Shown here: piece after piece, positions 1 through 29,511 of the stretch
Numbering within the stretch: the first letter of the stretch is position 1
Layout: each line of letters begins with the position of its first letter
Virus record (IMG/VR): IMGVR_UViG_3300042448_000350
Span: 1-29,511 of that record
Length of the DNA: 29,511 nucleotides
Source: a virus
Direction: 5' to 3' (one strand)
Program-made: the position numbers and the translations under genes
The notes under the pieces: generated by a model
Told to the model about the DNA's origin: nothing
What the model saw: only the letters and a program-made list of their open reading frames with translations
Database searches by the model: none

Positions 1-23
1 AAAACCAGTAAACTTTTAGTCAT
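1..23 (-). CDS. 5' end of an unidentified gene, cut by the window edge
   Basis: An ATG at 23-21 is followed by in-frame codons reading MTKSLLV up to the window edge. It begins directly after the eight-T run that ends the hairpin at 24-69, so the hairpin would sit immediately in front of its start codon. Seven codons cannot identify a product. The call rests only on strand, position and the promoter and leader upstream; it may be a chance ATG after a terminator. Confidence 0.3.
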
Positions 24-69
24 AAAAAAAACCCTTTAGCGTTCGGGTGCAGCCTACTAACTAAAGAGT
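24..69 (-). terminator. Hairpin plus T8: terminator or attenuator
   Basis: In minus-strand RNA, ACUCUUUAG (69-61) pairs with CUAAAGGGU (39-31): nine pairs with one G-U, around a 21-base loop, followed by eight U residues (31-24). It would stop both the small-gene operon (128-1037) and any transcript started at 109-116. Because an ATG follows at once, it may act as a conditional attenuator. The long loop contains CTGCAC, which can pair with GTGCAG upstream at 100-95. Confidence 0.65.
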
Positions 70-108
70 TTATAATAATTTCCTTAATTTACCTCTGCAC
101 AGGTTTTA
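24..108 (-). ncRNA. Candidate structured leader RNA or small RNA
   Basis: A TAnnTTTG promoter element at 116-109 would start a transcript of about 80 bases that ends in the hairpin at 24-69. GTGCAG near its 5' end (100-95) is the exact complement of CTGCAC (52-47) in the hairpin loop, so a pseudoknot or an alternative antiterminated fold is possible. I recognise no known riboswitch or small-RNA family. It could be a cis-acting leader of the gene starting at 23, a free small RNA, or only a terminator. Confidence 0.35.
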
Positions 109-116
109 CAAATATA
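109..116 (-). promoter_or_regulatory. -7 promoter element TATATTTG before the leader RNA
   Basis: TATATTTG on the minus strand matches the Bacteroidota TAnnTTTG -7 consensus and lies 12 bases after the stop codon of the last small gene. The bases upstream (ATTAAAAAATAATTGT) resemble the core shared by the four stronger promoters in the window, but no clear TTG lies 19 bases upstream. It is a weaker match than the promoters at 25370 or 22804. Confidence 0.45.
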
Positions 117-127
117 ACAATTATTTT

Positions 128-235
128 TTAATCTGATTCGAAATTTTTATAATAATTATTTGATATGTTAACTTTTATTCTCCACCGTTTTAATTTACGG
201 TAGTCAATCTTTTGCTTTGCGTTGTATATTATCAT
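128..235 (-). CDS. Small basic protein, 35 aa, last gene of the tiny-gene operon
   Basis: The reading frame opens with ATG at 235-233, which overlaps the TAA of the preceding small gene (TAATG), and closes with TAA at 130-128. It starts MIIYNAKQKIDYRKL and is rich in Lys, Arg, Tyr and Asn, with no hydrophobic segment. No family is recognised. Support comes from strict start/stop coupling to its neighbour and from lying in a run of six such genes. A chance frame in A+T-rich DNA remains possible at this length. Confidence 0.45.
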   Translation of the reverse strand: MIIYNAKQKIDYRKLKRWRIKVNISNNYYKNFESD

Positions 236-321
236 TACCAATACTTAATTATAAAATGAATAACAATATACCAAAATATAAAACCTATTACAAACGGTAA
301 TAAACATCCTAAACGTTTCAT
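235..321 (-). CDS. 28-aa single-span membrane peptide
   Basis: ATG at 321-319 overlaps the TGA of the upstream gene (ATGA) and the TAA at 237-235 overlaps the next ATG. The peptide starts MKRLGCLLPF and is almost entirely one hydrophobic segment from about residue 5 to 25, with positive residues at the N-terminus (K2, R3) and near the end (K26). This is the look of a tiny bitopic membrane protein. The function is unknown; superinfection immunity or a host-membrane effect would fit its place in a terminal accessory cassette, but that is speculation. Confidence 0.5.
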   Translation of the reverse strand: MKRLGCLLPFVIGFIFWYIVIHFIIKYW

Positions 322-500
322 AGCTTTTCCAATTCAGTTACAACAGACTTCCAAAACACGATTTTATCTAAGTCTAAGGTTTCCCAAACATGAGAATGAG
401 CCAAATATATTGCTATCTTTTTAGCTGTTAACTGGTGTTTTATTTCTAAACCTACATAAATATCATCCATTAGGTTTATTGCTTTCTCTTTTGGTGTCAT
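318..500 (-). CDS. Hypothetical protein, 60 aa
   Basis: A small, probably helical soluble protein starting MTPKEKAINLMDDIYVGL. It has no membrane segment and no motif I recognise. It starts with ATG overlapping the upstream stop (ATGA at 500-497) and its own TGA overlaps the start of the 28-aa membrane peptide, so it is translated within the same coupled operon driven by the promoter at 1061-1090. Similar fragments are scattered in Flavobacteriia phages, but I assign no role. Confidence 0.65.
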   Translation of the reverse strand: MTPKEKAINLMDDIYVGLEIKHQLTAKKIAIYLAHSHVWETLDLDKIVFWKSVVTELEKL

Positions 501-724
501 ACGTTTGATTTTACTATTACTGAATCCGTGTTTACAATCTTAAAAGTACGCAATTTTCTGTATTCTTGTTTAAATTGTACTAATCGCATCCCTTTATCTG
601 TTTTACAAACTTTCTCAAAGTATTCTTTTCCCTTAGTGACTTCTTTATAAACACGATTCAATACTTGTTGTAAGTCCTCAGGAGTAGTATATTCAAATGT
701 ACAAGTAACTTCTTTCGTTTTCAT
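497..724 (-). CDS. Hypothetical protein, 75 aa
   Basis: Starts MKTKEVTCTFEYTTPEDLQQ, with an apparent beta strand followed by a helix (about residues 15-45) rich in Lys and Glu, then a short strand-rich end. It is joined to both neighbours by ATGA overlaps (724-721 and 500-497). No domain is recognised. The compact alpha/beta pattern and charge suggest a soluble small host-directed or regulatory protein, but nothing in the sequence gives a function. Confidence 0.65.
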   Translation of the reverse strand: MKTKEVTCTFEYTTPEDLQQVLNRVYKEVTKGKEYFEKVCKTDKGMRLVQFKQEYRKLRTFKIVNTDSVIVKSNV

Positions 725-1197: not shown

Positions 1198-1419
1198 CTA
1201 TTTAATTCTTTTAGTAATCACTTTCGCAATTATTTTACCTATGAATTTCAGTAAGCCACCTTGTGCGTCAACTTTCACCTCAACGTTATCGGTGGTCTTA
1301 CTTACTTCTATATCTAAGTTTTTAGTATCTATATCTACTTTCGTGTTTCCGTCTTTGCGTTCTACATTAACATCTACGTTTTGCGTATCAACTTCTACTT
1401 TTAAATTCTTTTTAGCCAT
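1198..1419 (-). CDS. Small lysis-associated protein with cationic amphipathic C-terminal helix (disruptin-like candidate)
   Basis: 73 aa. Residues 1-52 alternate hydrophobic and charged residues (VEVD, VDVNVE, VDID, LDIEV, VEVKVD), suggesting repeated short beta strands. After a GG hinge, the last 18 residues are LLKFIGKIIAKVITKRIK: lysines fall every fourth position (3, 7, 11, 15 of the segment), hydrophobic residues fill the other face, and net charge is +6. This is the pattern of a membrane-disrupting helix. The gene directly follows the endolysin (TAATG overlap) and precedes the late terminator, so it belongs to the lysis cassette. Phage phiKT disruptin is a known cationic peptide that breaks the outer membrane; similarity here is in character only. 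A membrane-anchored structural protein is an alternative. Confidence 0.6.
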   Translation of the reverse strand: MAKKNLKVEVDTQNVDVNVERKDGNTKVDIDTKNLDIEVSKTTDNVEVKVDAQGGLLKFIGKIIAKVITKRIK

Positions 1420-3593: not shown

Positions 3594-4093
3594 CCACCGT
3601 AATTATTAATGTCACTTGGGTAAATATCCCCGTTTACATTTGCATTGTATTCTGGGAATAGGTCTTGATTATAAATTATATAACTTATAAATCTATCCGT
3701 ATATTCTTTCGCTATATTCGAGTATTTGTTTATTAAAAAGTCAACTTCGAGTTTATCTACGTTTTCCGAGTTTTCAGAACTATGCTTGTATATTCCTTTG
3801 TTTGCTATCGTATAAGCAGCATTTGGTAAATACTCAACCATGCTCCAATAAATAAGCATTGGCTTAACGTATATTTCTAATAGGTCTTTATAGTCACTAA
3901 AAGCAGGGTCATCTATATCTCCATTTAATACTAAATCTTTAATCTTAGTTAGTAATTTAGTTCCTAAGTAATTCTCTATATGAATGTCTTGAGCTATTTT
4001 TATAAACTGAATAAATTTATCCGTATCCGTGTTTCCGTTTAATGCTGTTAAACGTACTAAGTCATCCCTTGTTATTAATAAAGCTTCTGCCAT
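3581..4093 (-). CDS. Head-tail connector/head completion-like protein
   Basis: 170 aa, mostly helical. It has IKIAQDIHIENYLGTKLLTKIK (about 31-52, the centre of a long helix), a DYKDLLEIYVKP helix and YWSMVEYLPNAAYTIANKG, a pattern I associate with DUF6712-like adaptor proteins that lie beside portal genes in Bacteroidota phages and correspond to gp6-type connectors. Its ATG overlaps the portal stop codon (TAATG at 4093). It should sit under the portal ring, but this rests on family resemblance and context. Confidence 0.65.
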   Translation of the reverse strand: MAEALLITRDDLVRLTALNGNTDTDKFIQFIKIAQDIHIENYLGTKLLTKIKDLVLNGDIDDPAFSDYKDLLEIYVKPMLIYWSMVEYLPNAAYTIANKGIYKHSSENSENVDKLEVDFLINKYSNIAKEYTDRFISYIIYNQDLFPEYNANVNGDIYPSDINNYGGWIL

Positions 4094-5856
4094 TATTTCC
4101 CGTATATTTTATTAGTTGGTAAAAACCCGTTATAAGGCATATCTTTTGGAAGTGTACTAACTTTAGGTTCGTTTTTAACTACATAACCTAATTTTTCAGC
4201 TTTACGAACTGCTACTCTTTTAGCTTTTGGGCTATTAACATCTATTCCAGTACCCTCAAAACTTGCATACACTTGTTTATTCCACCTATGATTGCAATTA
4301 CCACCACCTTTATATAACCAAATTGAATATAAATCAGCTCCCTCTGGTCCCCAACCTGCATTAACAGCTTGTGTACTCATTCTTAAAATATCTTCTTTAC
4401 GGTAAATCTTTTTAGCTAACATCATTTTGCGACAAAACTCTCTTGAATCTGTTGTAGTATTACCTTGATAAACATAACGTGTTATGAATTTAACACCGTC
4501 TATATTTTCGTCTTGTGTACTTTTTGAATTAGGAAACGCAGAACCCGTTGAAACAAGGTTAACTACTTTACTTAATAAACTTTGTTTTGGCTCTTTAGAA
4601 AGTGTTTCGTTCTCGCTATCATCATTATCATAATCAACAGGGCTTTCGTCTATTAGAAGCCAATTTTCGTTTGGGTCTTCTCCTAAGTCAATTAACGATT
4701 GAGCAACAACAGAATCTTTACTTAACATCGTTCCCGTTTCTTCTGCTACTTGTTCCTCAGTTTGTGCGTTTTCAACATCCGTAAATTCTAAAGGTTGTAA
4801 TGTTCTAAAAGCTAATTTAAGCGATATTCCATTAAAAGCTAATATCTTATCTAAGTTAGTTATTAAAATGTCTTGAAACGGTTTAATAACCATGTTATCA
4901 AATAATATAAAACTATTTTTTAACTCATCTGCGTTACTTGAAAAGCCATTACTTGAAGCAATACCAAATAATAAAGGAGAAGTTACGTTATGCCCTAACA
5001 TTATTTTGCGTAAACACTCCTCACTTAAATATGTATAATGGTCTGGAGCATCGTTTAACGGTATATCCTCAACACTTGTTCGTGTTTCTACATTGTCGTT
5101 AAAACTTACTATAACTTTACGACCTTGTGAGCCTGTTAATTTCCCTAATACTTGGCTTGTGATTTGGTCTTGTTGTTCGGGTGTTGGAACACCGTTATTA
5201 AAGTTTACAATCTTAGTCCCAGAAAAACTATTTTGAACTTCATTGATTAAATAGTTAGCTACTTCTTCTTCTAACATTGCGTAACTTAACGCACCTTGAT
5301 AATCAACGTAACTAAAGTATTTCATGCCTATTGAATAAGGCTTAATATAAAGTATCTCTACTTCATTATTTGAAAACCCAAAAGCATCAAATCGCTTAGG
5401 TGGGAATTTGCGTATATCTTCCCAATTATCAGAATAATAATATGCTTCTATTTCTCCGTCTTTATTACACTTTTCAGGTGCTAATAACTGTACTGGAATA
5501 TGATATGCTTTAATTATTTTTTTATGGTCTTTAGTGTAATGAACTTGAATAGCACACTGCCCTAAAGCCTTTAATTCAAATGCTAACTTTCTTAAACAAT
5601 CTTGATTGAATAAGGTCATCATTTGAGCATACTCATTTGGCTTTTTATTAGCATCTAAAGCAAACAATCCACGACCGTAAATTAATCGGCTTATATTGTT
5701 TATAATTGCGTTATTAGTTGTTGAATTTTTATACCTATCAATAAGGAAATTAAAATAAGAATTTGATTCCCCGTATGTAACCCAATCTTCTCTTTTGGAT
5801 TCCACGACTTCTGGTGCTTCGTATTTTGCTAAATCTATTATATGTAGGTTATTCAT
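4093..5856 (-). CDS. Portal protein with C-terminal Mu F-like minor-head segment
   Basis: 587 aa. Residues 1 to about 390 look like a portal: an opening segment with SREDW-like charged start, TTNNAIINNISRLIYGRGL, LSYAMLEEEVANYLINEVQNSFSG and a long helix-rich stem with SSNADELKNSFILFDNMV. After an acidic, low-complexity linker (about 405-455) a separate module follows, with DSREFCRKMM, KIYRKEDILRMS, WGPEGADLYSIW and GGNCNHRW. The Cys/His spacing resembles the C-terminal motif of Mu F-like head morphogenesis proteins. The protein would form the DNA entry channel and may carry its own morphogenesis domain. No separate Mu F gene is seen. Unusually, the gene lies downstream of the capsid gene. 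Confidence 0.75.
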   Translation of the reverse strand: MNNLHIIDLAKYEAPEVVESKREDWVTYGESNSYFNFLIDRYKNSTTNNAIINNISRLIYGRGLFALDANKKPNEYAQMMTLFNQDCLRKLAFELKALGQCAIQVHYTKDHKKIIKAYHIPVQLLAPEKCNKDGEIEAYYYSDNWEDIRKFPPKRFDAFGFSNNEVEILYIKPYSIGMKYFSYVDYQGALSYAMLEEEVANYLINEVQNSFSGTKIVNFNNGVPTPEQQDQITSQVLGKLTGSQGRKVIVSFNDNVETRTSVEDIPLNDAPDHYTYLSEECLRKIMLGHNVTSPLLFGIASSNGFSSNADELKNSFILFDNMVIKPFQDILITNLDKILAFNGISLKLAFRTLQPLEFTDVENAQTEEQVAEETGTMLSKDSVVAQSLIDLGEDPNENWLLIDESPVDYDNDDSENETLSKEPKQSLLSKVVNLVSTGSAFPNSKSTQDENIDGVKFITRYVYQGNTTTDSREFCRKMMLAKKIYRKEDILRMSTQAVNAGWGPEGADLYSIWLYKGGGNCNHRWNKQVYASFEGTGIDVNSPKAKRVAVRKAEKLGYVVKNEPKVSTLPKDMPYNGFLPTNKIYGK

Positions 5857-6181: not shown

Positions 6182-6217
6182 ATATTATAAACGTTTGTTT
6201 CGTGTTTCTGTTTCTAA

Positions 6218-7876: not shown

Positions 7877-8455
7877 TTACTTATTTAGTTTTTCTAAGAT
7901 TGTATCCATTATTGAACGTTCTCTTTTAGAAGCAAGTCTTACTCTTTCAATTGGGTTCGTGTTTTCGGGATTGAATGAAATAGGCTTAGGCTCCTCGCTT
8001 AATTCTACTTCTGTTTTTTCTTCTACTTTGTTTAGTTTAGATAACTCAGCTTTCAAAGTTTCGTTTTCAGCTTTCAATGCTTCGATTTCACTAAAGAATG
8101 ATTCCTTAACTACACTTTCGATAGTTTTCTTTGGAGTAGCTACTGTTGTTTCGTTAGCTTCTACTTCTACCTCAACTGTTGGTTCTTCTTCCATTGGCTC
8201 CTCTTCCATTTTCTCTTTAACCTCTTTAACTACACCCTCAACCTCTACTACTAAAATACGTCCGTCTTCCGTTTCATATTCACCAACTGGAACTGGTATT
8301 TTTTGGTCATCTTCCGTAACTACGAAAACTTCCATTTCAGGTTCGAATGCGTCAGCTTCTAAAACTGTTACACCGTCCATTAATTTCATTCGTTCTAATT
8401 TTACTTCCATTCCTAAAAGAACTCGAACTTTGTTTAAGATTTGATTTGTATTCAT
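7877..8455 (-). CDS. Capsid scaffolding-like protein
   Basis: 192 aa. The first 80 residues form a small beta-rich domain (VTVLEADAFEPEMEVFVVTEDD, with VPVGEYETEDGRILVVE). It is followed by an extremely acidic Glu/Val-rich linker (about 82-105), a coiled coil with EIEALKAENETLKAELSKL (about 122-140), and a basic C-terminal end with RVRLASKRERSIMDTILEKL. Acidic linker plus coiled coil plus basic tail, immediately before the capsid gene, is the classic scaffold arrangement; the basic end would touch the capsid protein. It is probably cut by the protease encoded just upstream. Confidence 0.75.
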   Translation of the reverse strand: MNTNQILNKVRVLLGMEVKLERMKLMDGVTVLEADAFEPEMEVFVVTEDDQKIPVPVGEYETEDGRILVVEVEGVVKEVKEKMEEEPMEEEPTVEVEVEANETTVATPKKTIESVVKESFFSEIEALKAENETLKAELSKLNKVEEKTEVELSEEPKPISFNPENTNPIERVRLASKRERSIMDTILEKLNK

Positions 8456-8462: not shown

Positions 8463-8846
8463 TTATTTAAGAATATTTAACTTTTTAATCAACTCGTTTA
8501 CTTGTGATTGAGTTTTTCTTATTTTATCTTGATTTTTTTTAAATTCAGGTGGTTCCGATAAACCTAATTCTTTAATTGCTTTTTGCAATGGGGCTTCTAA
8601 TGCAATAGTTTTATTTATTGCTTTAACTGCTTCTTGACCAACAAAAACACCACCTTCCAAACGCATTTGTAATTGCTTTTTTAAATCATTAGCTTTATTA
8701 ACAAAATCTGTTAATTCTGTAATCCAACTGTCATCTCCAAATACAGAACGATTATATTCATCTAAAGTAGCTAACTCAACTTCGTGTTTTGCTAATTGAG
8801 TTTCCTCTTTAAATAACTTGTTATAAACTGTTTTTCTCGTGTTCAT
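8463..8846 (-). CDS. Coiled-coil head-module protein, 127 aa
   Basis: Starts MNTRKTVYNKLFKEETQL and is helical throughout, with heptad-like stretches at about 15-35, 45-65 and 100-127 (KTQSQVNELIKKLNILK). It lies between the protease and the scaffold gene. No family is recognised. It may be a second scaffold component or an assembly factor; the sequence gives no catalytic residues and no membrane segment. Confidence 0.6.
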   Translation of the reverse strand: MNTRKTVYNKLFKEETQLAKHEVELATLDEYNRSVFGDDSWITELTDFVNKANDLKKQLQMRLEGGVFVGQEAVKAINKTIALEAPLQKAIKELGLSEPPEFKKNQDKIRKTQSQVNELIKKLNILK

Positions 8847-11917: not shown

Positions 11918-12065
11918 TTCGTTTTACTTTTAGTTCTCTTATTGATTGATTCCAAAGGCTTTTAAAATCCTTTTTTAATTCGTGTTTTCCTTTCGCTATT
12001 TCTATGTTTTCAGATGCTCCTATAAACGCATCCAATTTTAACATATCTATTATTCCTTTTATCAT
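11895..12065 (-). CDS. Small basic protein before the tape measure, 56 aa
   Basis: ATG at 12065-12063 overlaps the TGA of the large tail protein (ATGA); TGA at 11897-11895 lies 23 bases inside the tape measure gene. The protein starts MIKGIIDMLKLDAFIGASEN and ends in a basic helix rich in Lys and Arg. It fills the whole gap between the two tail genes, and the coupled start makes it credible. A tape-measure chaperone or tail-tip factor is conceivable; no family is recognised. Confidence 0.6.
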   Translation of the reverse strand: MIKGIIDMLKLDAFIGASENIEIAKGKHELKKDFKSLWNQSIRELKVKRNGRKKGN

Positions 12066-19117: not shown

Positions 19118-19918
19118 TTATTTCGTTGTTTTCTCTACAAATGCTTTAAGAGGGTAAAATACAAGGCTATTTCTATATCCACCCTCATGAGTTGGAATAA
19201 TTGGTGTTACTCCATGTATATTTTTCCAAGCTGGATAAACAAGTATTGAATTATCCTCTTGTCCTATTGTAGCATTATAATCTGGTATATGTAAATCTCC
19301 GCCTTTTGAATTTAGTTTCTTGCAAATTATAACGTTAACCGCTCCAACTATATTTTTAGTATCTCTATGAAAAGGAGCTGAAATATTAAAGTTTGAAATT
19401 GAACTTGTAAATAAGTTTGCAAATCTCCATTTTTCAGGAACATCATTAAATAATTCAATTTGTTGTTTATATTGTTTAGGTAATAATTCTTTTATTAATT
19501 GTTCACTTTCTTTTGCTAATAGTAACATAGCTTTAATAAAAGTTTTTGATTTTTTATTTAGATGAACACTTGAAATTGACGGATAAGGTCTTGACATATG
19601 AGGTTTAGGAGGTATGCTTCCAATTATAGTACTTAATTGTTCAACTTCATTTTTATATTTAAAATTTCCTGTTTTTTCGTCAATACCATCTCCAGTTCTT
19701 CTTGTTAAAAGTGTTTTTTTTACATTATTACTTCTAAACTCTGCATTTGCTAATTCTGCCAACTTGCACATCTTTTCAGGCATCTTTGTAAGATAAAATC
19801 CAATAGGTTCTCCGTTATCGTAAAAAATGCAATCTTCAGTTATGTTTGGTTCTATTGTTCCGCACGTGTCTCCTATTTTAACATCGTGTTTTTGTAGTAT
19901 CAAATCAATTCTTTTCAT
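19118..19918 (-). CDS. 2OG-Fe(II) dioxygenase, TET/JBP-like
   Basis: 266 aa from the ATG at 19918-19916, which overlaps the methyltransferase end by 14 bases; an ATG 51 bases farther upstream is less likely. The double-stranded beta-helix motifs are visible: FHRDTKN (H184 and D186, the HxD iron ligands), GGDLHIPDY (206-214), NIHGVTPI (H235, third iron ligand) and GYRNSLVFY (R249, 2-oxoglutarate). The upstream part has RSNNVKKTLLTRRTG, IPPKPHMSRPYPS and WRFANLFTSS, which I recognise from TET/JBP-type oxygenases of phages. Those hydroxylate methylated bases in DNA. The place between TerS and a methyltransferase supports a nucleic-acid target, but a protein or glycan substrate is not excluded. 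Confidence 0.75.
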   Translation of the reverse strand: MKRIDLILQKHDVKIGDTCGTIEPNITEDCIFYDNGEPIGFYLTKMPEKMCKLAELANAEFRSNNVKKTLLTRRTGDGIDEKTGNFKYKNEVEQLSTIIGSIPPKPHMSRPYPSISSVHLNKKSKTFIKAMLLLAKESEQLIKELLPKQYKQQIELFNDVPEKWRFANLFTSSISNFNISAPFHRDTKNIVGAVNVIICKKLNSKGGDLHIPDYNATIGQEDNSILVYPAWKNIHGVTPIIPTHEGGYRNSLVFYPLKAFVEKTTK

Positions 19919-20603
19919 ATCCAAATACATTTGTACAAGCTGGAAACCAAGACTTTTGCCATACGTCATAATCTCGGCTTTTAAACTTCGCTGTGTTTCC
20001 TATTTCTGCTAAATTATAAACTCTATTTTGTTTTTCAATTATATTCCAAAATCTTGGTAAACTTCCGTCAATATCAAAACTCCATTCATAAACTAATTTT
20101 TTAAATACTTTATTCGTGTTTTCAAGTATAGGCATTTCAGCACCCTCAATATCCATTTTACAGCAATCAAAATTTTCTGCTTCTAAATCAAAATTTAAAC
20201 AAGGAACTTTTATTCCTTTGTTATTCCATTTCTTAACAATAGAATTTCGCCATACATTTCCGTTATTCCCTATAAAAAGTATTATTTCTTTTGTATCATT
20301 ATGAATTAAAGCGGCTTGTTTTATCTCAGCATTAAAATTATTCAGCTTCAAATTTCTTTCAATCATTTTGCAGTTAAACGGGTCAGGTTCATAAATAGTA
20401 ACTTTTGCTCCTTTTGAACAAGCTAATAAAGCAAATGCACCAACGTTACCACCACAATCCATCCACTTTTCACCTTTATTTATTGTCATTCCTTTTTTAA
20501 GATAGGTTTTATTTCCTATTACTTCATTGAATGTTTTAAGGTCTGAAAAACCTTCTCGATGATAAAATTTTATTCCGTCTATTTGTCCCTCGTTTAACTT
20601 CAT
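19905..20603 (-). CDS. FkbM-family SAM-dependent methyltransferase
   Basis: 232 aa. SAM-binding motif I WMDCGGNVGAFALL (47-60), the acidic strand VTIYEPDPFN (68-77) and DCCKMDIEGAEMPIL (146-160) are the standard FkbM motifs. FkbM enzymes are usually O-methyltransferases of sugars or small molecules. Starts MKLNEGQIDGIKFYHREG, with ATG overlapping the ParB-like stop (ATGA). It lies in a run ParB-like, FkbM, oxygenase, TerS, TerL, so it may modify a base adduct, a virion glycan, or a protein. The target cannot be deduced. Confidence 0.8.
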   Translation of the reverse strand: MKLNEGQIDGIKFYHREGFSDLKTFNEVIGNKTYLKKGMTINKGEKWMDCGGNVGAFALLACSKGAKVTIYEPDPFNCKMIERNLKLNNFNAEIKQAALIHNDTKEIILFIGNNGNVWRNSIVKKWNNKGIKVPCLNFDLEAENFDCCKMDIEGAEMPILENTNKVFKKLVYEWSFDIDGSLPRFWNIIEKQNRVYNLAEIGNTAKFKSRDYDVWQKSWFPACTNVFGYEKN

Positions 20604-21184: not shown

Positions 21185-21385
21185 TTAGTTTGGATTATAT
21201 TGATAGGTTTTAAATTCTTCTTTTGTTACTGCGTGTATTTCTAACTTATTTATTTCATAGTCTAAAAATATACAGTAGTTTATTTCGCTAACTTGCATTA
21301 TTACTCTTATTGCGCTCCATTCGTGTTTATGTTTGTTTGGGTTCATAAACACTATGTAATAATCGCTTTTTAGAATAATGCTCAC
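21185..21385 (-). CDS. Hypothetical protein, 66 aa
   Basis: Starts MSIILKSDYYIVFMNPNKHK and is composed mainly of beta strands (AIRVIMQVS, INYCIFLDYE, LEIHAVTKEE) followed by a short helix. It ends directly before the ParB-like ATG (TAAATG). No recognised family, membrane segment or catalytic motif. Likely a small accessory protein of the late operon. Confidence 0.6.
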   Translation of the reverse strand: MSIILKSDYYIVFMNPNKHKHEWSAIRVIMQVSEINYCIFLDYEINKLEIHAVTKEEFKTYQYNPN

Positions 21386-21784
21386 TTACTTTAATTCGTC
21401 TTTGTATTCGTTATAAACTTTTCTTAAATCATTTATTCTTTCAGCTACGCAACTTGGGCAGCTTGTTAGTTCGTTTCTTACTTGGAATACTCTTGAATGT
21501 ATTTTAAATAGTTCTACTTGTTCTGAAGCAGTTACTTTATCCGTGTTTCTGCTAAACCATTCATGCAACCAATCATACTCTAATTGTTCTAAACACAAAG
21601 GTTTTTTATAAGGGAATAATTCGTTTAATTTAGCTTTACGTTCATCGCATCCGCAATCTTCTCCTAATATCCATTTTGCAACCTTTGAAATTCCAGTTGC
21701 TTCTAATACCTTTTCTACTGTGTCTCCTAATCCTTTACTTTCAGCTGCTAAAATTTCAGCTTTAGTTCGTCTTTTTCTTGCCAT
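21386..21784 (-). CDS. Conserved phage protein with four cysteines, 132 aa
   Basis: A basic start (MARKRRTKAEILAAE) is followed by VEKVLEATGISKVAKWILG and GEDCGCDERKAKLNELFPYK; a second Cys pair, SCPSCVAERI, lies near 110. The four cysteines may bind zinc. The rest is helical, with YDWLHEWFSR. The 'GEDCGCDxRK-LN-LFP' sequence recurs upstream of terminase genes in Bacteroidota phages; its function is unknown to me. It may bind nucleic acid given the basic N-terminus. Confidence 0.65.
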   Translation of the reverse strand: MARKRRTKAEILAAESKGLGDTVEKVLEATGISKVAKWILGEDCGCDERKAKLNELFPYKKPLCLEQLEYDWLHEWFSRNTDKVTASEQVELFKIHSRVFQVRNELTSCPSCVAERINDLRKVYNEYKDELK

Positions 21785-21786: not shown

Positions 21787-22317
21787 TTATTTAATTAATT
21801 CGTAATCTTGGTTTTTAAAATCTTGGTAATCTTCTTCAACGTTTTCTTTTAAACGTTCTTTGCAACTTTTTATAGTACAGAAGATAGAACGTAAACTTAT
21901 ATTCGTGTCTTTTGCTATATCTCGCATTGATTTATCCGTGTCTTTGTATAACTTGAATAAAAGCTGGTCGTAATAATGCCACGTTTTAGTTTCATTGTTT
22001 ACTCTATTCATTAAACTTCCAAAGGCTTCGTGTTCTTCTATCTCATCTATCTGTTGTAAAGTAAGTATTTCACTAATATCTACTTTTATTATTTTGCTTT
22101 TCTGCCTGTAAAAATCAACGAATAACGAACGCAAAGTTAAGTAAACGTAATACCTATTCACTTGTCCGTTTATAATAACTTGTTGCTCTTTATTTTTATT
22201 CAATAAACGAATATACATTTCCTGTACTAAGTCTTCTGCATAAAAGTATTCTCCAAATCCTTGAATCGTCTTTACATACTCTTTGTGATGCTTTGCTACA
22301 AGTTCAATCCAATTCAC
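21787..22317 (-). CDS. Sigma-70-like transcription factor
   Basis: I choose the GTG at 22317-22315 (MNWIELVAKHHKEY) because it overlaps the stop of the small upstream frame (GTGA); the upstream TTG would add eight residues. 176 aa in two domains. A sigma region-2-like part has FGEYFYAEDLVQEMYIRLLN (about 21-40) and YVYLTLRSLFVDFYRQKSK (the helix that meets -10 DNA). A region-4-like HTH has KSMRDIAKDTNISLRSIFCTI near 135-155. The layout resembles ECF-type sigma factors. It lies near the head of the late operon, so it may redirect host RNA polymerase to late or small-gene promoters. Confidence 0.75.
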   Translation of the reverse strand: MNWIELVAKHHKEYVKTIQGFGEYFYAEDLVQEMYIRLLNKNKEQQVIINGQVNRYYVYLTLRSLFVDFYRQKSKIIKVDISEILTLQQIDEIEEHEAFGSLMNRVNNETKTWHYYDQLLFKLYKDTDKSMRDIAKDTNISLRSIFCTIKSCKERLKENVEEDYQDFKNQDYELIK

Positions 22318-22421
22318 TTTACATATATTTCTACAACCCAATACAAAAAGAAAATGCCTATGACACCAGAACTTTTATAACTGATACCAAAGGCAATCTC
22401 ATCCGTTCGTTTAATTTTCAC
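22314..22421 (-). CDS. 35-aa membrane peptide coupled to the sigma-like gene
   Basis: A GTG at 22421-22419 overlaps the TAG of the zinc-ribbon gene (TAGTG), and the TGA at 22316-22314 overlaps the GTG of the sigma-like gene (GTGA), so this frame bridges the two genes exactly. The first about 17 residues are charged and polar (KIKRTDEIAFGISYKSS); the rest is hydrophobic with GVIGIFFLYWVVEIYV. It may be a real peptide or a leader whose translation sets the level of the sigma-like protein. An anti-sigma role is speculative. Confidence 0.45.
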   Translation of the reverse strand: MKIKRTDEIAFGISYKSSGVIGIFFLYWVVEIYVK

Positions 22422-22774: not shown

Positions 22775-22803
22775 AATTCGTGTTTTTAATTGTTTAACGT
22801 CTA

Positions 22804-22886: not shown

Positions 22887-23090
22887 TTATTTACTAAAAA
22901 ACATTCCTAATTTTTCGATTGAACTGCTGGACAAATTTTGTCCTTTCATAAACTTGTGCAAGTTAGGTTGTCTTATATCTACAATCTTTGAAAATGCGTT
23001 TAAACTTAATTCGTGTTTTTGTATGTAATTTTTAATCATTAACCGAGTAAGTTCATTCGCTTCGCTTAATACTTTTGCGTGTTCTTTCAT
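22887..23090 (-). CDS. Small Cro/CI-like HTH protein
   Basis: 67 aa. A first helix (LTRLMIKNYIQKH) is followed by LSLNAFSKIVDIRQPNLHKFMKGQNLSSSSIEKLGMFF, an XRE-type HTH (about 28-66) in which SKIVDIRQPNLHKFM is the helix-turn-helix. No dimerisation or cleavage domain exists. It is the last gene before the terminator at 22832 and promoter D, joined to its neighbour by ATGA. It is a good candidate for the protein binding the shared promoter core and timing the early-late switch; a lysogeny repressor role is possible but no lysogeny gene is seen. Confidence 0.8.
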   Translation of the reverse strand: MKEHAKVLSEANELTRLMIKNYIQKHELSLNAFSKIVDIRQPNLHKFMKGQNLSSSSIEKLGMFFSK

Positions 23091-23311
23091 ATACCGTTTA
23101 AAAAGTCATCAAATCCTTGTTTCTGTTTAGGCTGTTCCTGGACTGGTTTAAAACTTAATGATTGAAATTTACCTTTTGCTCCGTCTTTTACCCAAGCAGA
23201 AACGTAATAATCAACTCCGTTAATAGTTGCTTTACCTTGATAGTGCGGATGCGTTTCCTTTTCTCTTTTGTCGTTAGTAAATAACGCTCCGCTGTTTTCT
23301 CTTTTTTCCAT
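23087..23311 (-). CDS. DUF736-like small protein, 74 aa
   Basis: Starts MEKRENSGALFTNDKREKET and continues HPHYQGKATINGVDYYVSAWVKD and KFQSLSFKPV, matching the 'GALF-N--K---HP-Y-G---I-G--Y--S-W-K---G---L' pattern I know from DUF736-like proteins. The acidic/Gln tail ends GFDDFLNGI, which resembles the C-terminal tip of single-strand-binding proteins. The place in a recombination operon and that tail suggest an SSB-like accessory role, without proof. Confidence 0.65.
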   Translation of the reverse strand: MEKRENSGALFTNDKREKETHPHYQGKATINGVDYYVSAWVKDGAKGKFQSLSFKPVQEQPKQKQGFDDFLNGI

Positions 23312-23764: not shown

Positions 23765-23956
23765 TTACTTTGTTTTAATATATAATCGTTTAAATCTTTC
23801 AACCGAACAACAAAACTCTGTTATAGGGTTTGTTTCATGTTGTCTTATTGTTTCGTACCAAAGTTTATCTTTTTTAAAGTCTTTGATTTGTACTATTTGC
23901 TCTCGGGTCGTGTTTTTGTAGTAACCCATTATTTGTAAGTCATCTTTCATTTTCAT
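23765..23956 (-). CDS. Hypothetical protein, 63 aa
   Basis: Starts [20 protein letters not shown] and contains [17 protein letters not shown] and [15 protein letters not shown]; a basic, probably mixed alpha/beta protein. It overlaps the upstream coiled-coil gene by 17 bases. No family is recognised. Confidence 0.6.
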
Positions 23957-24152
23957 TTATTTTTTCGCATTCGTATTCACTTATCGTTTCATTCAATAGT
24001 TGAATTTCAGCTTTTGCGCTTGTTAATTTAGTTTCTAAAACTTGAATTTTACTTTCTAAAGATTCGTATTTTAATTTATATTCAATCATTTTAGCTCTTG
24101 ATTCTCCGTACTTATCAATAATGCTTTCAAAAAATTCTGCTAAATCTATCAT
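23940..24152 (-). CDS. Short coiled-coil protein, 70 aa
   Basis: Starts MIDLAEFFESIIDKYGESRA, then a nearly perfect heptad pattern to the end (YESLESKIQVLETKLTSAK, QLLNETISEYE). It should be a parallel or antiparallel coiled coil. It directly follows the YqaJ-like exonuclease with ATGA overlap. It could be a partner of a recombination enzyme; no family is recognised. Confidence 0.65.
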   Translation of the reverse strand: MIDLAEFFESIIDKYGESRAKMIEYKLKYESLESKIQVLETKLTSAKAEIQLLNETISEYECEKINENER

Positions 24153-24820
24153 AATTCATTTATTAAATTGTTATAATATACTCTTGCTAACTCTATTCGT
24201 TCTTTAATTTGTTCTATTACACTTTCGTCTTTTGCTATTTTAAAGACTTTCACGCGCTTTTCTTTTGGTATATGGTCGAAATTATGTTTCTTCTGCACAA
24301 AATCTCTTACATCCAAACTTTCATCAATTAACCCTTGTCTCCAATGTTCACGCCTAACCTCGTCCTCAACTATTTGAAACGGTGTATTGACTAAACAATA
24401 ACAAAGTAACGCTTCATCTTTTCCTGTTAACCACATATAACCCTGAAGTTGATAGTAATAATCTTTGTTAGGACATTCGGTTTCAAAAAACGGAAACGTC
24501 GTAGCGTCCCAAGAAGTTTTCACGTCTAAAAGTATTTCATTTGTGTTTACGTCAGGAGTTCCCGTTATCCATTCGTTGTTTAGATTTTCATCATTCTTAT
24601 AAATAAACCCTAAGTTCAAAACATCGTTAACAAGTTCAATGGCTTCGTCTTCGCATTCGTTACCTTTGTCAGTGTATCGACTCCAAAACTCCTTACGGAT
24701 TCCATACGTGTTTTCGATTGCAAGTTCCTGAATGTAGCTTTTACAGGTCTTAGATAGAACTTCCCCTTTGGTTTTTGGGGAAGTCATTATTTTGCCTAAT
24801 TGTGATGCTCGGATTTTCAT
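24149..24820 (-). CDS. YqaJ-like exonuclease (lambda-exo fold)
   Basis: 223 aa. The PD-(D/E)XK signature is visible: KGNECEDEAIELV (52-64), GTPDVNTNEILLDVKTSW (87-104) with D90, D99 and K101, and KDYYYQLQGYMWLTG (119-133), the YqaJ QxxxY motif. These enzymes degrade one strand of double-stranded ends and hand it to an annealase. It overlaps the ERF-like gene by ATGA, the standard exonuclease-annealase pair. The N-terminal RASQLGKIM is also characteristic. Confidence 0.9.
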   Translation of the reverse strand: MKIRASQLGKIMTSPKTKGEVLSKTCKSYIQELAIENTYGIRKEFWSRYTDKGNECEDEAIELVNDVLNLGFIYKNDENLNNEWITGTPDVNTNEILLDVKTSWDATTFPFFETECPNKDYYYQLQGYMWLTGKDEALLCYCLVNTPFQIVEDEVRREHWRQGLIDESLDVRDFVQKKHNFDHIPKEKRVKVFKIAKDESVIEQIKERIELARVYYNNLINEL

Positions 24821-25341
24821 ACTAATAACAATGCTTTTGTTTGTAATTCAGTTAATTCAAATTTATCTTTTAATTGTTCAACTGTAAATTCGTTATTACG
24901 TATTGATTCAATAGCTTTTTCAAATCGTGCGTTATCTATTGCAGGTTTTTTTGCTTCCGTTTTTGTGTTGTCTTTTGAATCGGGGTCGCTTTCAGTTTCG
25001 TCAATTAAGAATAAACCATTCAATGCGTATTTACGTGCGTAACTTGAAGCGGTACCAGTGCATTGCTCACTTGACATTCCTTTGTGTTCTCCCATTTCAG
25101 CATATCCAAAAACCTCTATTGTTCCGTCATCATCTGAAATAAGCGCACTTGCTTTTAAAAATAGTTTGTTACCTACTTGAATAATTTCATCGGATAAAAG
25201 TAATAACGCATCGTGTTTTTGTAGCAATGGTTTTACTGATTCTAAAATTTGTTCTGCGCTTCGGTATTTGTATTTACCGAATGAATTGTAAGAACCTTTT
25301 GGACATTTTAATTCTTGTTGAATTCTCCTAAGTGTTTTCAT
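24817..25341 (-). CDS. erf: ERF-family single-strand annealing protein
   Basis: 174 aa. YNSFGKYKYRSAEQILESVKPLL (about 18-40) and SSEQCTGTASSYARKYALNGLFLIDE (about 94-119) are the ERF signature. An acidic, disordered linker (SDPDSKDNTKTE) follows, then a small C-terminal helical domain. ERF proteins anneal complementary strands for circularisation and replication-linked recombination. First gene after promoter B, with the partner exonuclease next. The short length is within the family range. Confidence 0.88.
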   Translation of the reverse strand: MKTLRRIQQELKCPKGSYNSFGKYKYRSAEQILESVKPLLQKHDALLLLSDEIIQVGNKLFLKASALISDDDGTIEVFGYAEMGEHKGMSSEQCTGTASSYARKYALNGLFLIDETESDPDSKDNTKTEAKKPAIDNARFEKAIESIRNNEFTVEQLKDKFELTELQTKALLLV

Positions 25342-25415: not shown

Positions 25416-25778
25416 TTATAAAAATTTCTTCAATCCGTTGGCACATCGTGTTATACTGTTAGCACGTTCCTGGAGTGACTTTATTTGCTCTTGGATAGTT
25501 TCTTTACAATCGCTTGTAAAATAACCGTTAGACGTTGCTATTAACGGAATAATGCCGTTTGTACGAATGTAGTTAACAATTTTACGTAAACGTGGTTGTG
25601 TCATTCGTGTTTTATATCCACGTGCTAATAGATATTCGTTCATTCGTGTTACGATTAATTCAGCTTTTATTGGATTCGTCTTTTTGTAGTTTCTGAAACC
25701 ATGTACTACGATAGGTAGTATCTCCATTTCTTCGCTTGTTAGTTCGCTTGTGTGTTCTTCAAAGTTTGTAACTGACAT
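25416..25778 (-). CDS. Winged-helix-like small protein, 120 aa
   Basis: The first 35 residues are acidic with SEEMEILPIVVHGFR; then NPIKAELIVTRMNEYLLARG, TRMTQPRLRKIVNYIRTNG and IIPLIATSNGYFTSDCKETIQEQ look like a winged-helix domain with a beta wing (IATSNGYF). A C-terminal helix with SLQERANSITRCANGLKKF follows. Similar proteins are common in Bacteroidota phages. It has its own promoter (C) and is the only gene before promoter B, so a transcription or replication control role is reasonable. Confidence 0.65.
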   Translation of the reverse strand: MSVTNFEEHTSELTSEEMEILPIVVHGFRNYKKTNPIKAELIVTRMNEYLLARGYKTRMTQPRLRKIVNYIRTNGIIPLIATSNGYFTSDCKETIQEQIKSLQERANSITRCANGLKKFL

Positions 25779-25840: not shown

Positions 25841-26485
25841 TTAAAATAATTTTAATTGCTTAACGTGATTGTTAATTCTTTCAATCGCCTTTTCGTAGTA
25901 TTCAGTATCTAATTCGCAAGCTGTTAAATTAAATCCGTAGTCATGGCATGCAATAGCTATTGAGCCACTTCCTAAATGAGTGTCAAGTATCTTATCGCCT
26001 TGTTTACCGTATTTATCGAGTAACCATTTGTAAAGTTTATAAGGCTTTTCAGTTGGATGGAATGTATTTTGCATATTTAATTGCGCTCTATTTATTTCAA
26101 TTTGCCTTGTTACCGTTTTAAAAGAAGTCCAAGCCATTTCACCATCTGACATTGTTAAATCATTTTGACCTTTATACCAAAATATCCAAGCCTTTGTAGG
26201 TTTTAAATATTCAGTAAAGTAATTTCCACCCCAAACAATTTGATTAGCAGAAACACGGAACAATTCTTCAAAATATTCTTTTGTAGGTATCGAACTATCC
26301 CAGCTTTTTTTTGAATGTTCTTTACGATTGTGTTTAGGGTTTTTATTAATGTTTTTCTTTTGTCCGTCTATTCCAATCCCATAAGGCGGGTCAACAATAG
26401 CCAAATCAAAATAGTTATCAGGATAACGAGCCATTAAAGCCATATTATCTTCGTTTGTTATTGTTATTTTGTCTGTTACTTGCAT
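25841..26485 (-). CDS. DNA methyltransferase, N6-adenine/N4-cytosine class
   Basis: 214 aa. Catalytic motif IV is VDPPYGIGID (31-40), and SAM motif I is DTHLGSGSIAIACHDYG in the C-terminal part (near 167-183), the order of the beta class (N6_N4_Mtase). FHPTEKPYKL (near 143) is the typical 'HPT-KP' signature. The target-recognition region between the two motifs is small. No restriction endonuclease is adjacent, so this is an orphan enzyme, probably protecting phage DNA or regulating it. Confidence 0.88.
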   Translation of the reverse strand: MQVTDKITITNEDNMALMARYPDNYFDLAIVDPPYGIGIDGQKKNINKNPKHNRKEHSKKSWDSSIPTKEYFEELFRVSANQIVWGGNYFTEYLKPTKAWIFWYKGQNDLTMSDGEMAWTSFKTVTRQIEINRAQLNMQNTFHPTEKPYKLYKWLLDKYGKQGDKILDTHLGSGSIAIACHDYGFNLTACELDTEYYEKAIERINNHVKQLKLF

Positions 26486-26486: not shown

Positions 26487-26741
26487 TCAATTAAAATTTT
26501 CTTTTACCCATTCTCTAAATGCTCTTTGAATATCTATCTGCTGTGCGTTTACTTCAATATCAGTATGCTTCAATATACGTTCGTCATTTTGTCGGATTTC
26601 ATCCATTAACATATTTGCTTTACGTTTAATGTTCTTTGAAAACACGAACTCCATGTTTAAATCCTCAATGTAATCTGCTAATACTGGTAATACTCCACAT
26701 AATACCAATAGTTTTTTTTCTGTTTCAATGCTTACTTTCAT
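26487..26741 (-). CDS. Hypothetical protein, 84 aa
   Basis: Starts MKVSIETEKKLLVLCGVLPV; mostly helical, with LADYIEDLNMEFVFSK, an Asn/Lys-rich central helix and AFREWVKENFN at the end. It overlaps NinG by 17 bases and ends directly before the methyltransferase start. No family is recognised. An accessory to replication or recombination is likely from position alone. Confidence 0.6.
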   Translation of the reverse strand: MKVSIETEKKLLVLCGVLPVLADYIEDLNMEFVFSKNIKRKANMLMDEIRQNDERILKHTDIEVNAQQIDIQRAFREWVKENFN

Positions 26742-27255
26742 TTTCTAATTGTTTTACTTTTTGTTTATACTCGGTTATTATTTTTTTTAGTTCGTCTTTT
26801 GTGAACTTTCGTGTTTTCCTTGCCTCTGCTTCAAGAATAAGAAATTCGGAATTTCCGATTTTGTTAATTAGGTTGGTTCTATATTCCAACAGATTACCAC
26901 TCAAATAGGTATTGCAGTGTTCGCATTGGAGATGCGTATTCCTTTCGTCAAATCGAACGTTCCAATGATTGTTTGCATTAAAGAAGTGTCCGGCATTTTC
27001 TTTTAAGGCTGGTTTTTGGCATGATATACAAACTTGTCCTTTATCACGTAACCGTATGAACTTATTGAAAATGATTTGTGTCATTTTAACGTAGTCTTGT
27101 ATTGTTTCGAGTTCCTGTTGCATCTTTTGTTTCTTCTGTTTCCATTGTTTCGCCTTTTCGGATTCTACCCAAACACGGACGCACTCAGATTCTAAACAAT
27201 ACTTTTGATTAAAGCGGATAGGCTCAAATTTCTCTTTGCAGTTTTTACACTTCAT
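26725..27255 (-). CDS. ninG: NinG-like recombination endonuclease
   Basis: I choose the ATG at 27255-27253 (MKCKNCKEKFEPIRF), as the TTG two codons upstream is unlikely. 176 aa. A zinc motif (CKNC at 3-6 with CLESEC at 20-25), a long charged helix, then CISCQKPALKENAGHFFNA and LQCEHCNTYLSGN show the Cys/His arrangement of lambda NinG (Rap), a Holliday junction endonuclease. Overlap with the C5 methyltransferase is 11 bases. Together with ERF and YqaJ it makes a recombination set. Confidence 0.85.
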   Translation of the reverse strand: MKCKNCKEKFEPIRFNQKYCLESECVRVWVESEKAKQWKQKKQKMQQELETIQDYVKMTQIIFNKFIRLRDKGQVCISCQKPALKENAGHFFNANNHWNVRFDERNTHLQCEHCNTYLSGNLLEYRTNLINKIGNSEFLILEAEARKTRKFTKDELKKIITEYKQKVKQLENESKH

Positions 27256-27919
27256 AATCAAATATTGATGTTTGGTTTATATTCGTCTTTTTGTAAATGT
27301 TTAACGCAGTTTCGAGTATTGTTTTCCCGGCTTCATAATCTACTAAGTTACGTGCCATTTTAAGTACTGATTGCGTACCGTTGTATTTTTTAAAATTGTA
27401 ATTATGAAACTCACACAATCCTTTTAATTCATCTTTTGCTTGACTTATTGCAAATCTTCTATCATTTAAACCACTTGGCAAATTAAAGTTGGTCCAGTAC
27501 AAATGTCTTCCTCGTTTTTGTGCGTGTATTAAAGGTTCGTAGTAAGGTATTACATTTTCAACTACAAATTTTCCGTGTTTATAATAATGCTGTAAAAACA
27601 AAATTTCTTCATATAATTTCATATCCGGGTAAACAGGTTCGGTTGTGGTGTCGTAATTTGAACTATTCCAATACCTGGCCCGTGAATGACTTGGACAAGG
27701 GGGCGAACTCCAAATAAAATCGAACTCTTTGTAATGGTCTAAAAGATATTGGTGTGCGTCTGCTACTATTACTTTGTCATTTGAAAAACGTTCTTGATAT
27801 AAACGTGCTGCTTCCGGGTCAAGTTCTACCGCTGTTATTTCTAAGTTGTCTGCAACCTCATCCCACTTGTAACGATTGCCACCTAAACAAGCATATAAAT
27901 TTAGTATTCTATATTTCAT
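27245..27919 (-). CDS. Cytosine-5 DNA methyltransferase-like, short
   Basis: 224 aa. SAM region ILNLYACLGGNRYKW at 5-19 and AVELDPEAARLY at 30-41, catalytic motif IV SSPPCPSHS at 71-79 with nucleophile C75, and VVENVIPYY at 119-127 (ENV motif VI) identify the C5 family. The usual motif VIII and a separate target-recognition domain are not clear, so it is shorter than Dcm-type enzymes. It may methylate a short site such as a dinucleotide. No partner endonuclease is seen. Confidence 0.78.
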   Translation of the reverse strand: MKYRILNLYACLGGNRYKWDEVADNLEITAVELDPEAARLYQERFSNDKVIVADAHQYLLDHYKEFDFIWSSPPCPSHSRARYWNSSNYDTTTEPVYPDMKLYEEILFLQHYYKHGKFVVENVIPYYEPLIHAQKRGRHLYWTNFNLPSGLNDRRFAISQAKDELKGLCEFHNYNFKKYNGTQSVLKMARNLVDYEAGKTILETALNIYKKTNINQTSIFDYEV

Positions 27920-28202
27920 AATTTTTAGTTGTTAATTGTGCCTCTAAATCCTTTGCTTTAAACTTCTCTTCCATTAATAGCTTTTCAAGTCTAAAATTTT
28001 GCTGTAATGCTGCTCTTAGTTCCTTTTCCATAGCATCGTAACTTATTTTTACTTGTTGTAAGTCTGCTAAGCTACGTTCCATTGAATGTATTAAATCATA
28101 TCTATTTGAGGCACGTTCTTTTATTTCTTCAAGACTTAGTTTAATCTTTAAATAGGTAGTGTCTAAGTTTACTTTTCCAGTTATAATTGTCAGTTCATCC
28201 AT
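27909..28202 (-). CDS. Coiled-coil protein, 97 aa
   Basis: Starts MDELTIITGKVNLDTTYLKI, then helices with a heptad pattern (RSLADLQQVKISYDAMEKEL, NFRLEKLLMEEKFKAKDLE). Its leader contains the iterons at 28231-28281 and an AAAAACACGAATAA element just before the ATG. It is adjacent to the helicase gene, so a helicase partner or loader is possible, but no family is recognised. Confidence 0.6.
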   Translation of the reverse strand: MDELTIITGKVNLDTTYLKIKLSLEEIKERASNRYDLIHSMERSLADLQQVKISYDAMEKELRAALQQNFRLEKLLMEEKFKAKDLEAQLTTKNYEI

Positions 28203-28230
28203 TTATTCGTGTTTTTGCTTGTTATATTTA

Positions 28231-28281
28231 TCTAAATTACGTCTAAAGTATGTCTAAAGTACGTCTAAATTACGTCTAAAA
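28231..28281. repeat. Tandem 11-bp iterons, about 4.5 copies
   Basis: On the plus strand the units start at 28231, 28242, 28253 and 28264: TCTAAATTACG, TCTAAAGTATG, TCTAAAGTACG, TCTAAATTACG, then a partial TCTAAAA at 28275. Consensus TCTAAA[TG]TA[CT]G; the period of 11 is about one helical turn, so bound proteins would line up on one face. The last half unit reaches into the helicase stop codon. It may be a replication origin, a partition or operator site. Confidence 0.85.
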
Positions 28282-29304
28282 TGGAACATCTTTTTTCATC
28301 TTTTCGCTAAACGAAAGTAATTCTTTTCCGTTAACCACATCGGGTTCGATTAAAGGAAGTTTAGCCGGAAAACTATTTGATATTGGTTTCGTGTTTCTTT
28401 GTGCGTAAACTTTACGACCAAAATTATCAATCATGTAATACTGATATTTTTCAATATCTAAATACATTTTGTAAGTTCCGTTTTTTGATACCCCTTTTGG
28501 TTTGCTTTTAGCTACTTTCAAATGTACTTCATTAATTTCATAAACATTATTATCATTATCTGTCAATCCAACAGGTGGTCTCCAAGGAATTAAAACTGAT
28601 AAACCTTTACGGAACCATACTTGCCCTCCAGCAAAATCTCGAGCAGTTGGCATTGGATAAAATGTATGTTCATTTCGTGTTATTGGTGCCTGGTCCCGAA
28701 CGTGATTAATAATACAGTTATGTCGGTTTGTTTTACGTGCGTTTTTTCGTGCCAATCCTAAAATTCTACTAAGGTATTTATCTTCTCTGCCTAAGTCTGA
28801 ATGAATATAGTTTTCAGTTAATTCATTCCAAGGGTCAATTGTCGTAGTGTGAATGTTTATTTCGTATTTACGTTCAATCTCATCAACCATTTCATAAAAC
28901 TTTTCAAGTGTTAAATCCTCATCAATCGGATCAATTACTATAAAATGCTCATTAATAAAATTCTCTGCTATTGTTTGCTCCGATAAACTCATTGTGTTTT
29001 CGTGTTTTGCGTATGGCTTACCGATATACTTATAACAAAGTTCGGAAAATATCTCAGCTGAACTTCCAGTCTCAGGAGAAAATATAACGTGATTCCAATT
29101 GTGTAAACACGAAAGATTAATTAAAAACTCAAACCATAACTCAGTTTTACCACTTGCTGGTGCTGCTCCGATATACGTTGTACATCCCTCTTTGATTGTG
29201 TATGGTAATAAATCCCAATCCCAACCAACTGATTTACCTTTTACGTTTAATTCGTTTCGTATTGCGAATAGTTCGCTTGAAACTTCTTGAAGTCGTTTAA
29301 ACAT
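28276..29304 (-). CDS. DnaB/Twinkle-like replicative helicase
   Basis: 342 aa. The SF4 motor has YIGAAPASGKTELWFEFL (44-61, Walker A GAAPASGKT at 46-54), IFSPETGSS (near 75), a Walker B-type TTTIDPWNEL (near 154), NHVRDQAP (near 200, H3) and DFAGGQVWFRKGLSVLI (near 223, H4). The 'DPWNE' and 'AAGASGK'-like details recall Twinkle and T7 gp4 helicase parts. There is no primase and no DnaB N-terminal domain, so it needs a separate primase. Its ATG overlaps the previous stop (TAATG). Confidence 0.83.
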   Translation of the reverse strand: MFKRLQEVSSELFAIRNELNVKGKSVGWDWDLLPYTIKEGCTTYIGAAPASGKTELWFEFLINLSCLHNWNHVIFSPETGSSAEIFSELCYKYIGKPYAKHENTMSLSEQTIAENFINEHFIVIDPIDEDLTLEKFYEMVDEIERKYEINIHTTTIDPWNELTENYIHSDLGREDKYLSRILGLARKNARKTNRHNCIINHVRDQAPITRNEHTFYPMPTARDFAGGQVWFRKGLSVLIPWRPPVGLTDNDNNVYEINEVHLKVAKSKPKGVSKNGTYKMYLDIEKYQYYMIDNFGRKVYAQRNTKPISNSFPAKLPLIEPDVVNGKELLSFSEKMKKDVPF

Positions 29305-29511
29305 TATTCGTGTATTATTTGAGGTGTGTAACTTTTTGATTCGTCTTTACGTAAATACGGAAGTGTATTTAATAAAGTGCTTTTCCAATTTACAATTTTA
29401 CGTGTTTTATTATTAACTGTAACACTCCAGTCGTTAACTTTCCATGATTCGTATTTAAGTCTAACATCTTCTTTGTTTATGAACTTAACTTGACTAACTG
29501 CATAATCTAAA
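29304..29511 (-). CDS. Replisome organiser/HTH replication protein, C-terminal part, cut by the window edge
   Basis: 68 residues of an open frame reach the 29511 edge and stop with TAA overlapping the helicase ATG. The visible part, FINKEDVRLKYESWKVND, WSVTVNNKTRKIVNWKSTLL and NTLPYLRK, resembles the C-terminal end of phage replication initiator proteins ('W---W-v---rkI-NWK-tL-ntLPYL'). Location before the helicase gene supports a role in loading it at the origin. The N-terminal DNA-binding domain would be outside the window. Confidence 0.55.
   Translation of the reverse strand, partial: LDYAVSQVKFINKEDVRLKYESWKVNDWSVTVNNKTRKIVNWKSTLLNTLPYLRKDESKSYTPQIIHE

Follow-up and report, generated by a model that had tools for sequence, protein, structure and literature searches.

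AAACACG, a polar heptamer selected as nucleic acid in a lineage of uncultured phages, and its possible Chi-like role

Why does one seven-base word recur, mostly on a single strand, throughout a phage genome? The question is raised by the heptamer AAACACG in IMG/VR virus record IMGVR_UViG_3300042448_000350, all 29,511 bases of which are referred to here as the window; such records can be fragments, and the open reading frames (ORFs) used in the analysis were called mechanically. Nearly all of the window genes lie on the minus strand. They encode portal, terminase, tape-measure-like and other virion proteins, then Erf, an exonuclease, NinG, and a DnaB/primase-helicase-like ATPase. AAACACG is specific to phages that share one recombination/replication module. 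It is interpreted here as a recognition signal of this phage lineage, polar and acting at the level of DNA, most likely Chi-like for DNA-end processing, an interpretation to which we give about an even chance.

An exact count places 31 copies of AAACACG on the minus (coding) strand, called forward below, and 6 on the plus strand, called reverse. Both figures agree with an initial annotation made from the sequence alone, whose positions are correct to within about 11 bases. Zero-order composition predicts 2.5 and 0.9 copies, respectively, and a third-order Markov model predicts 9.3 on the minus strand. The annotated coding sequences hold 21 copies, versus 4.0 after synonymous codon shuffling of the genes (maximum 11 in 100 shuffles) and 2.5 after codon shuffling, and under both of these nulls AAACACG is the top-scoring 7-mer. 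The motif is best written as AAA(C>G)ACG(A/G)A, with AAAGACG as a weaker second form. On both strands together, AAACACGRA occurs 28 times in 29.5 kb (24 forward, 4 reverse), or about once per kb. The AAACACG sites, all from the exact count, are as follows.

527-533, minus strand
1342-1348, minus strand
4028-4034, minus strand, codons AAC ACG
5081-5087, minus strand, codons ACA CGA
6201-6207, minus strand, leader
7958-7964, minus strand
8783-8789, minus strand, codons AAA CAC GAA
9544-9550, minus strand, codons AAA CAC GAA
10590-10596, minus strand
11981-11987, minus strand, intergenic
12881-12887, minus strand
14701-14707, minus strand
15317-15323, minus strand
15680-15686, minus strand
17963-17969, minus strand
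19885-19891, minus strand
20115-20121, minus strand
21322-21328, minus strand, intergenic
21542-21548, minus strand
22779-22785, minus strand, directly ahead of an ATG
23012-23018, minus strand, within a small helix-turn-helix ORF
23909-23915, minus strand, within a small ORF
24707-24713, minus strand
25212-25218, minus strand
25606-25612, minus strand
26810-26816, minus strand, in ninG at a position common to many relatives
27574-27580, minus strand
28208-28214, minus strand, directly ahead of an ATG
28390-28396, minus strand
29001-29007, minus strand
29401-29407, minus strand
354-360, plus strand, opposite orientation
649-655, plus strand, opposite orientation
26251-26257, plus strand, opposite orientation
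26640-26646, plus strand, opposite orientation
27171-27177, plus strand, opposite orientation, in ninG at a position common to many relatives
29105-29111, plus strand, opposite orientation

These copies occupy all three codon phases, as the initial annotation had noted. It had also placed copies in untranslated leaders; some are indeed there, but they are few (those at 22779 and 28208 end 5-6 bases ahead of an ATG), and several seemingly intergenic copies sit within small ORFs. The fairly even spacing that it described holds in the window, where the gaps have a coefficient of variation of 0.64, a value reached by about 1% of random placements, but it is not general, since the mean percentile over 24 relatives is 0.49.

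The proposed enrichment and polarity were also found in related phages. Across 80 IMG/VR loci related to the window by their portal (68-89% identity), AAACACG occurs 479 times forward, with 64 expected, and 93 times in reverse. In the noncoding DNA of these loci it is the top 7-mer (140 versus 11.5), besides repeat-like GGTGGT and CCCTTTT types. A comparison of 37 near-complete or long records separates 24 motif-rich genomes, with 16-36 forward copies each (2.0-3.6 expected), from 13 others with 0-7. Relative to per-genome synonymous shuffles, AAACACG is the most enriched 7-mer of the motif-rich set (479 versus 120), and AAAGACG occurs 372 times versus 145; in the 13 comparison phages the shuffle reveals no enrichment of AAACACG (26 versus 22). 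Related genomes are not independent, so per-genome counts overstate the sample size, a problem that the conservation, codon-context, and permutation controls help to offset in part.

The motif carriers are a group of uncultured phages, the hosts of which are probably of Flavobacteria type. Their head modules differ (the terL gene product has about 33% identity in G124, G126, G127, G130, and G131), and the motif is retained. Portal relatives that seem to be without it are mostly short, portal-centered contigs from the motif-poor head region. In an unbiased scan for paired motifs, 59 of 79 contigs share at least three genes with the window, and the remaining contigs that were checked belong to the same lineage or owe their copies to chance or to local repeats. 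L540, a T4-like contig with 11 copies, was set aside as carrying a locally repeated element in another context; this TCAAACACGAAAG element is possibly promoter-like and is not related to the window lineage. A literature search found no paper on an AAACACG motif.

Conservation was measured in pairwise alignments of orthologous sites, with 104 permutations of AAACACG as the control. At 65-70% identity, AAACACG is kept at the same site in 43% of cases versus 13% for the permutations; the corresponding values are 50% versus 20% at 70-75% identity, 67% versus 39% at 80-85%, and 88% versus 75% at 90-98%, and retention lies above the permutations in every identity bin. At coding sites with identical amino acids, AAACACG is kept 87% of the time versus a median of 34% over 2,885 7-mers. 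It ranks eighth, and most of the 7-mers above it cover low-degeneracy codons.

Codon choice is bent toward the motif as well. Where AAA precedes and a codon beginning with G follows, histidine is encoded by CAC 169 times and by CAT 3 times, versus 46 and 57 when the following base is not G. After a codon ending in A, AAC-ACG occurs 219 times versus 47 expected (68 versus 46 in a control context), and ACA-CG is used for Thr-Arg 91 times versus 23. None of these biases is present in the non-enriched phages. Lys-His-G is itself about 3 times commoner in the motif-rich phages (188 per 194k codons versus 36 per 125k). Selection on AAACACG thus acts at the nucleic-acid level, whatever the reading frame, as the shuffles, the conservation of orthologous sites, and the distorted codon choice each indicate. 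The over-representation goes beyond both composition and codon use, and the earlier suggestion that codon or amino-acid choice is not the cause is supported.

How the copies are oriented and distributed bears on whether the motif works in DNA or RNA. Among the relatives, forward copies fall in all phases, at 0.89/kb within genes and 1.25/kb between them. Their density is 1.40/kb from the replication genes (prim) to terL versus 0.75/kb elsewhere, and it is higher inside this interval in 21 of 22 genomes; for the permuted motifs the same comparison gives only 0.186 versus 0.151. Reverse copies are enriched in one region only, which starts about 10 kb to the left of ninG and extends to the 3' side of this gene, and where most bins hold 0.13-0.43/kb; to the right of this, their density is about background. 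They exceed all 104 permutations only at -5 to +1 kb around ninG, and one reverse site within ninG, common to many relatives, inflates the bin at 0. The genes of this region all run forward, and therefore the orientation of AAACACG does not follow transcription: it is regional, and not simply transcriptional. This pattern favors a role at the DNA level over one at the mRNA level, although it falls short of proof.

The presence of AAACACG follows the recombination/replication module and not the head or DNA-methylation genes. The relevant genes of the window are listed here.

17643-18803, minus strand, terminase large subunit, at the far end of the densest forward-motif interval from the replication genes
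23087-23311, minus strand, small single-stranded DNA-binding (SSB)-like protein, phrog_18154
24149-24820, minus strand, lambda-exo/YqaJ-type exonuclease, whose presence tracks the motif except where a FEN-type exonuclease replaces it
24817-25341, minus strand, Erf-type single-strand annealing protein
26725-27261, minus strand, NinG/Rap junction endonuclease
27909-28202, minus strand, small coiled-coil-like protein
28276-29304, minus strand, DnaB/primase-helicase-like ATPase, close to the presumed origin

Exo and Erf are encoded by the related phages, some of which have a FEN-type exonuclease instead. Only motif-rich genomes carry Exo at 56% identity or more, and distant homologues (39-43%) occur in phages without motif enrichment. 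As a separate observation, G125 (L339:3624-4394), L462-L467, and L213 carry a FEN/T4 RNase H-like 5'-3' exonuclease at the site of the lambda-type enzyme, between Erf and SSB, a non-homologous replacement inside the recombination operon. By profile search, the SSB-like family is present in 24 of 24 motif-rich genomes (two with a divergent type) and in 0 of the 13 others, and AAACACG is enriched about 5-fold or more in each of the 76 loci that carry the family and span at least 6 kb. The coiled-coil-like protein is found in 23 of the 24 (weakly in two) and in 1 of the 13; it was rejected as the reader, its match being weak in G134 and G137. The predicted model of the SSB-like protein (pLDDT 84) has four strands and a helix, and a fold search with it gave no significant match, the best (E 0.8) being PC4/Sub1-like single-stranded DNA binders. 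Many members have an acidic tail of SSB type, and the predicted topology is PC4-like; this may be a distinct family of single-stranded DNA-binding proteins.

The best reading of these features is a Chi-like role tied to recombination-dependent replication and packaging. Among the candidates offered by the initial annotation, the best fit is a polar signal that is Chi-like or related to replication/packaging; a host Chi is not supported by the sampled chromosomes, and a modification site is unlikely. AAACACG is short, non-palindromic, and polar, and its nearest counterpart is the Chi of lambdoid phages (GCTGGTGG, recognized by RecBCD), which is likewise short, polar, and strongly over-represented in phage DNA (PMC3784561). 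Lambdoid Chi is concentrated in the interval from the replication genes to the terminase (Bobay et al. 2013; PMC3784561), as AAACACG is. Phages with a recombinase but without a RecBCD inhibitor over-represent Chi (PMC3784561), and the motif-rich phages likewise have their own recombinase and no detected inhibitor. Unlike AAACACG in the sampled hosts, however, Chi is the host's own motif, over-represented in E. coli and Salmonella, and its density is 0.2/kb versus about 1/kb for AAACACG. Lambda exonuclease, of the same family as the window enzyme, also behaves in a sequence- and strand-specific way, with a pause motif, GGCGA (Perkins et al. 2003, as described in PMC7496540); its sequence is different, and it forms a single strong pause site, in the left cos, rather than a selected array spread over the genome. 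The KOPS/AIMS octamers of bacterial chromosomes are also polar and dispersed, but they are chromosomal leading-strand features for DNA translocases and are not known to form a phage-only array.

A Chi-like signal would operate as follows. An end-processing nuclease or recombination complex would enter at DNA ends, such as the one created near terL by cutting of the concatemer in headful packaging, and would then meet forward-facing copies in the origin-to-terminase interval. At the motif it would pause or change activity, so that phage DNA would be spared and recombined. If, as gene order suggests, packaging begins near terL and moves toward the head genes, the forward copies would face an enzyme coming from the end left of the cut. 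Facing the entering enzyme is the active orientation of a Chi-type site, as established for E. coli RecBCD. As the reader, a phage exonuclease/annealase/SSB complex appears slightly more likely than host AddAB.

Several points weigh against this interpretation. Host enrichment, the defining feature of Chi, is not seen in the sampled Flavobacteriales and Bacteroidia. The late head genes have the lowest forward density, perhaps as a result of coding constraint, and the packaging site, the packaging direction, and the origin are predicted from gene order. In seven contigs (L462-L467 and L213), a FEN-type 5'-3' exonuclease located between Erf and SSB stands in place of the lambda type, and the motif is intact; AAACACG thus does not always co-occur with one exonuclease family, and the exonuclease was ruled out as sole reader. 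The SSB is an unlikely sole reader as well, given that G126 and G127, whose divergent SSB resembles that of the non-enriched G123, keep 28-32 copies. No one phage gene accounts for AAACACG, which survives swaps of the exonuclease and of the SSB.

With a density in phage DNA tens of times that in host DNA, the motif could also mark phage DNA as self. Tentatively, AAACACG may be a phage-private self code, in which the phage's own recombination or nuclease machinery reads the polar heptamer and steers resection, concatemer recombination, and packaging, sparing phage DNA while host DNA can be degraded. Such a code would be a virus-owned counterpart of Chi; to our knowledge, known Chi-type signals belong to cells and are borrowed by phages. 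Here an oriented heptamer is maintained across an entire phage lineage, with protein and codon sequence bent to it and no sign of it in the sampled host chromosomes. This would be either the first lead to the Chi of an unsampled Bacteroidota host or a virus-owned Chi-like code, and purified enzymes with short DNA substrates would allow a direct test of each option.

The first of these options, in which AAACACG is the ordinary Chi of the true host's AddAB/RecBCD and the host lineage is unsampled, seems rather unlikely. It would account for a layout like that of Chi in lambdoid phages with their own recombinases and no inhibitor, and for a motif that outlasts the exo and SSB swaps. Among the phages related to the window, Gam had no match in any of 22 records. 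Of 25 Flavobacteriales genomes, 24 encode an AddB-size PDDEXK_1 protein, in most cases together with another of AddA size, and the Chi of B. fragilis was still unknown in 2014 (PMC4027173). However, AAACACGRA occurs at about 0.02/kb over the two strands together in 397 Flavobacteriales genomes. In 99 Flavobacteriales and 247 Bacteroidia genomes AAAACACGAA shows no enrichment either, both forms being generally rarer than their reversed controls, and the motif-rich contigs of the unbiased scan are almost all of one lineage. Because no sampled host chromosome is enriched, a chromosomal Chi or KOPS of the sampled hosts was rejected. The nearest host leads are Chishuiella (terL 55%) and phages P12024S/L of Nonlabens (portal 36%). 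P12024S and the Chishuiella genome are not rich in AAACACG, and a search for a host by means of the exonuclease found none in 398 Flavobacteriales genomes.

A replication-strand signal, such as a preferred primase start on the lagging-strand template or a fork- or origin-related site, is doubtful to a somewhat greater degree. Forward copies would then mark rightward forks, and the region of reverse copies would also be crossed by leftward forks. The density of about 1/kb is near the size of Okazaki fragments, and reverse copies are limited to the region around the helicase and initiator genes. On the other hand, several motif-rich genomes lack the helicase/primase-like gene or have a very different one, and the spacing of AAACACG is not regular. 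Known primase sites, moreover, are trinucleotides and need no enrichment.

That the copies are mostly on the sense strand, with a mild excess upstream of starts (27 within 3-15 bases versus about 12 expected), would suit a signal in mRNA to which the ribosome, an RNase, or an RNA-binding protein of phage or host origin binds. We consider this improbable, given the strongly enriched antisense copies in sense-strand genes of one region and the location of 551 of 651 copies inside genes, the great majority far from starts. A start-codon element was rejected, the excess upstream of starts being only mild.

Enrichment does not follow methylase or TET genes, and the DNA modification target suggested earlier, whether for a C5-methylase plus TET oxygenase or for an N6/N4 methylase, is for this reason highly improbable. 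The window does encode a C5 methylase, a Tet_JBP oxygenase, and an N6_N4 methylase, but many motif-rich phages are without both TET and C5-methylase genes, and most phages with close homologues of either lack the enrichment. Finally, although the coding strand is A-rich and ACG-rich and hexamers within the motif are also common, an origin in codon usage, composition, or shared protein motifs is for practical purposes refuted by the synonymous shuffles, the codon context in all frames, the conservation at amino-acid-identical sites, and the non-enriched relatives.

Some further features of these genomes may be recorded. The Tet_JBP-type 2OG-Fe oxygenase (19118-19969, minus strand; PF12851, 4e-10) is labeled "queuine tRNA-ribosyltransferase" in PHROGs; together with the C5-cytosine methylase (27245-27919) and an FkbM-type methyltransferase (19905-20603), it suggests a cytosine hypermodification pathway. 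The palindromic 4-mers CTAG, GATC, GGCC, CATG, and CCGG are strongly depleted in the relatives L004-L083, which suggests restriction avoidance. A protein encoded at 21787-22341 on the minus strand of the window weakly resembles sigma-70 region 2 and is possibly a phage transcription factor.

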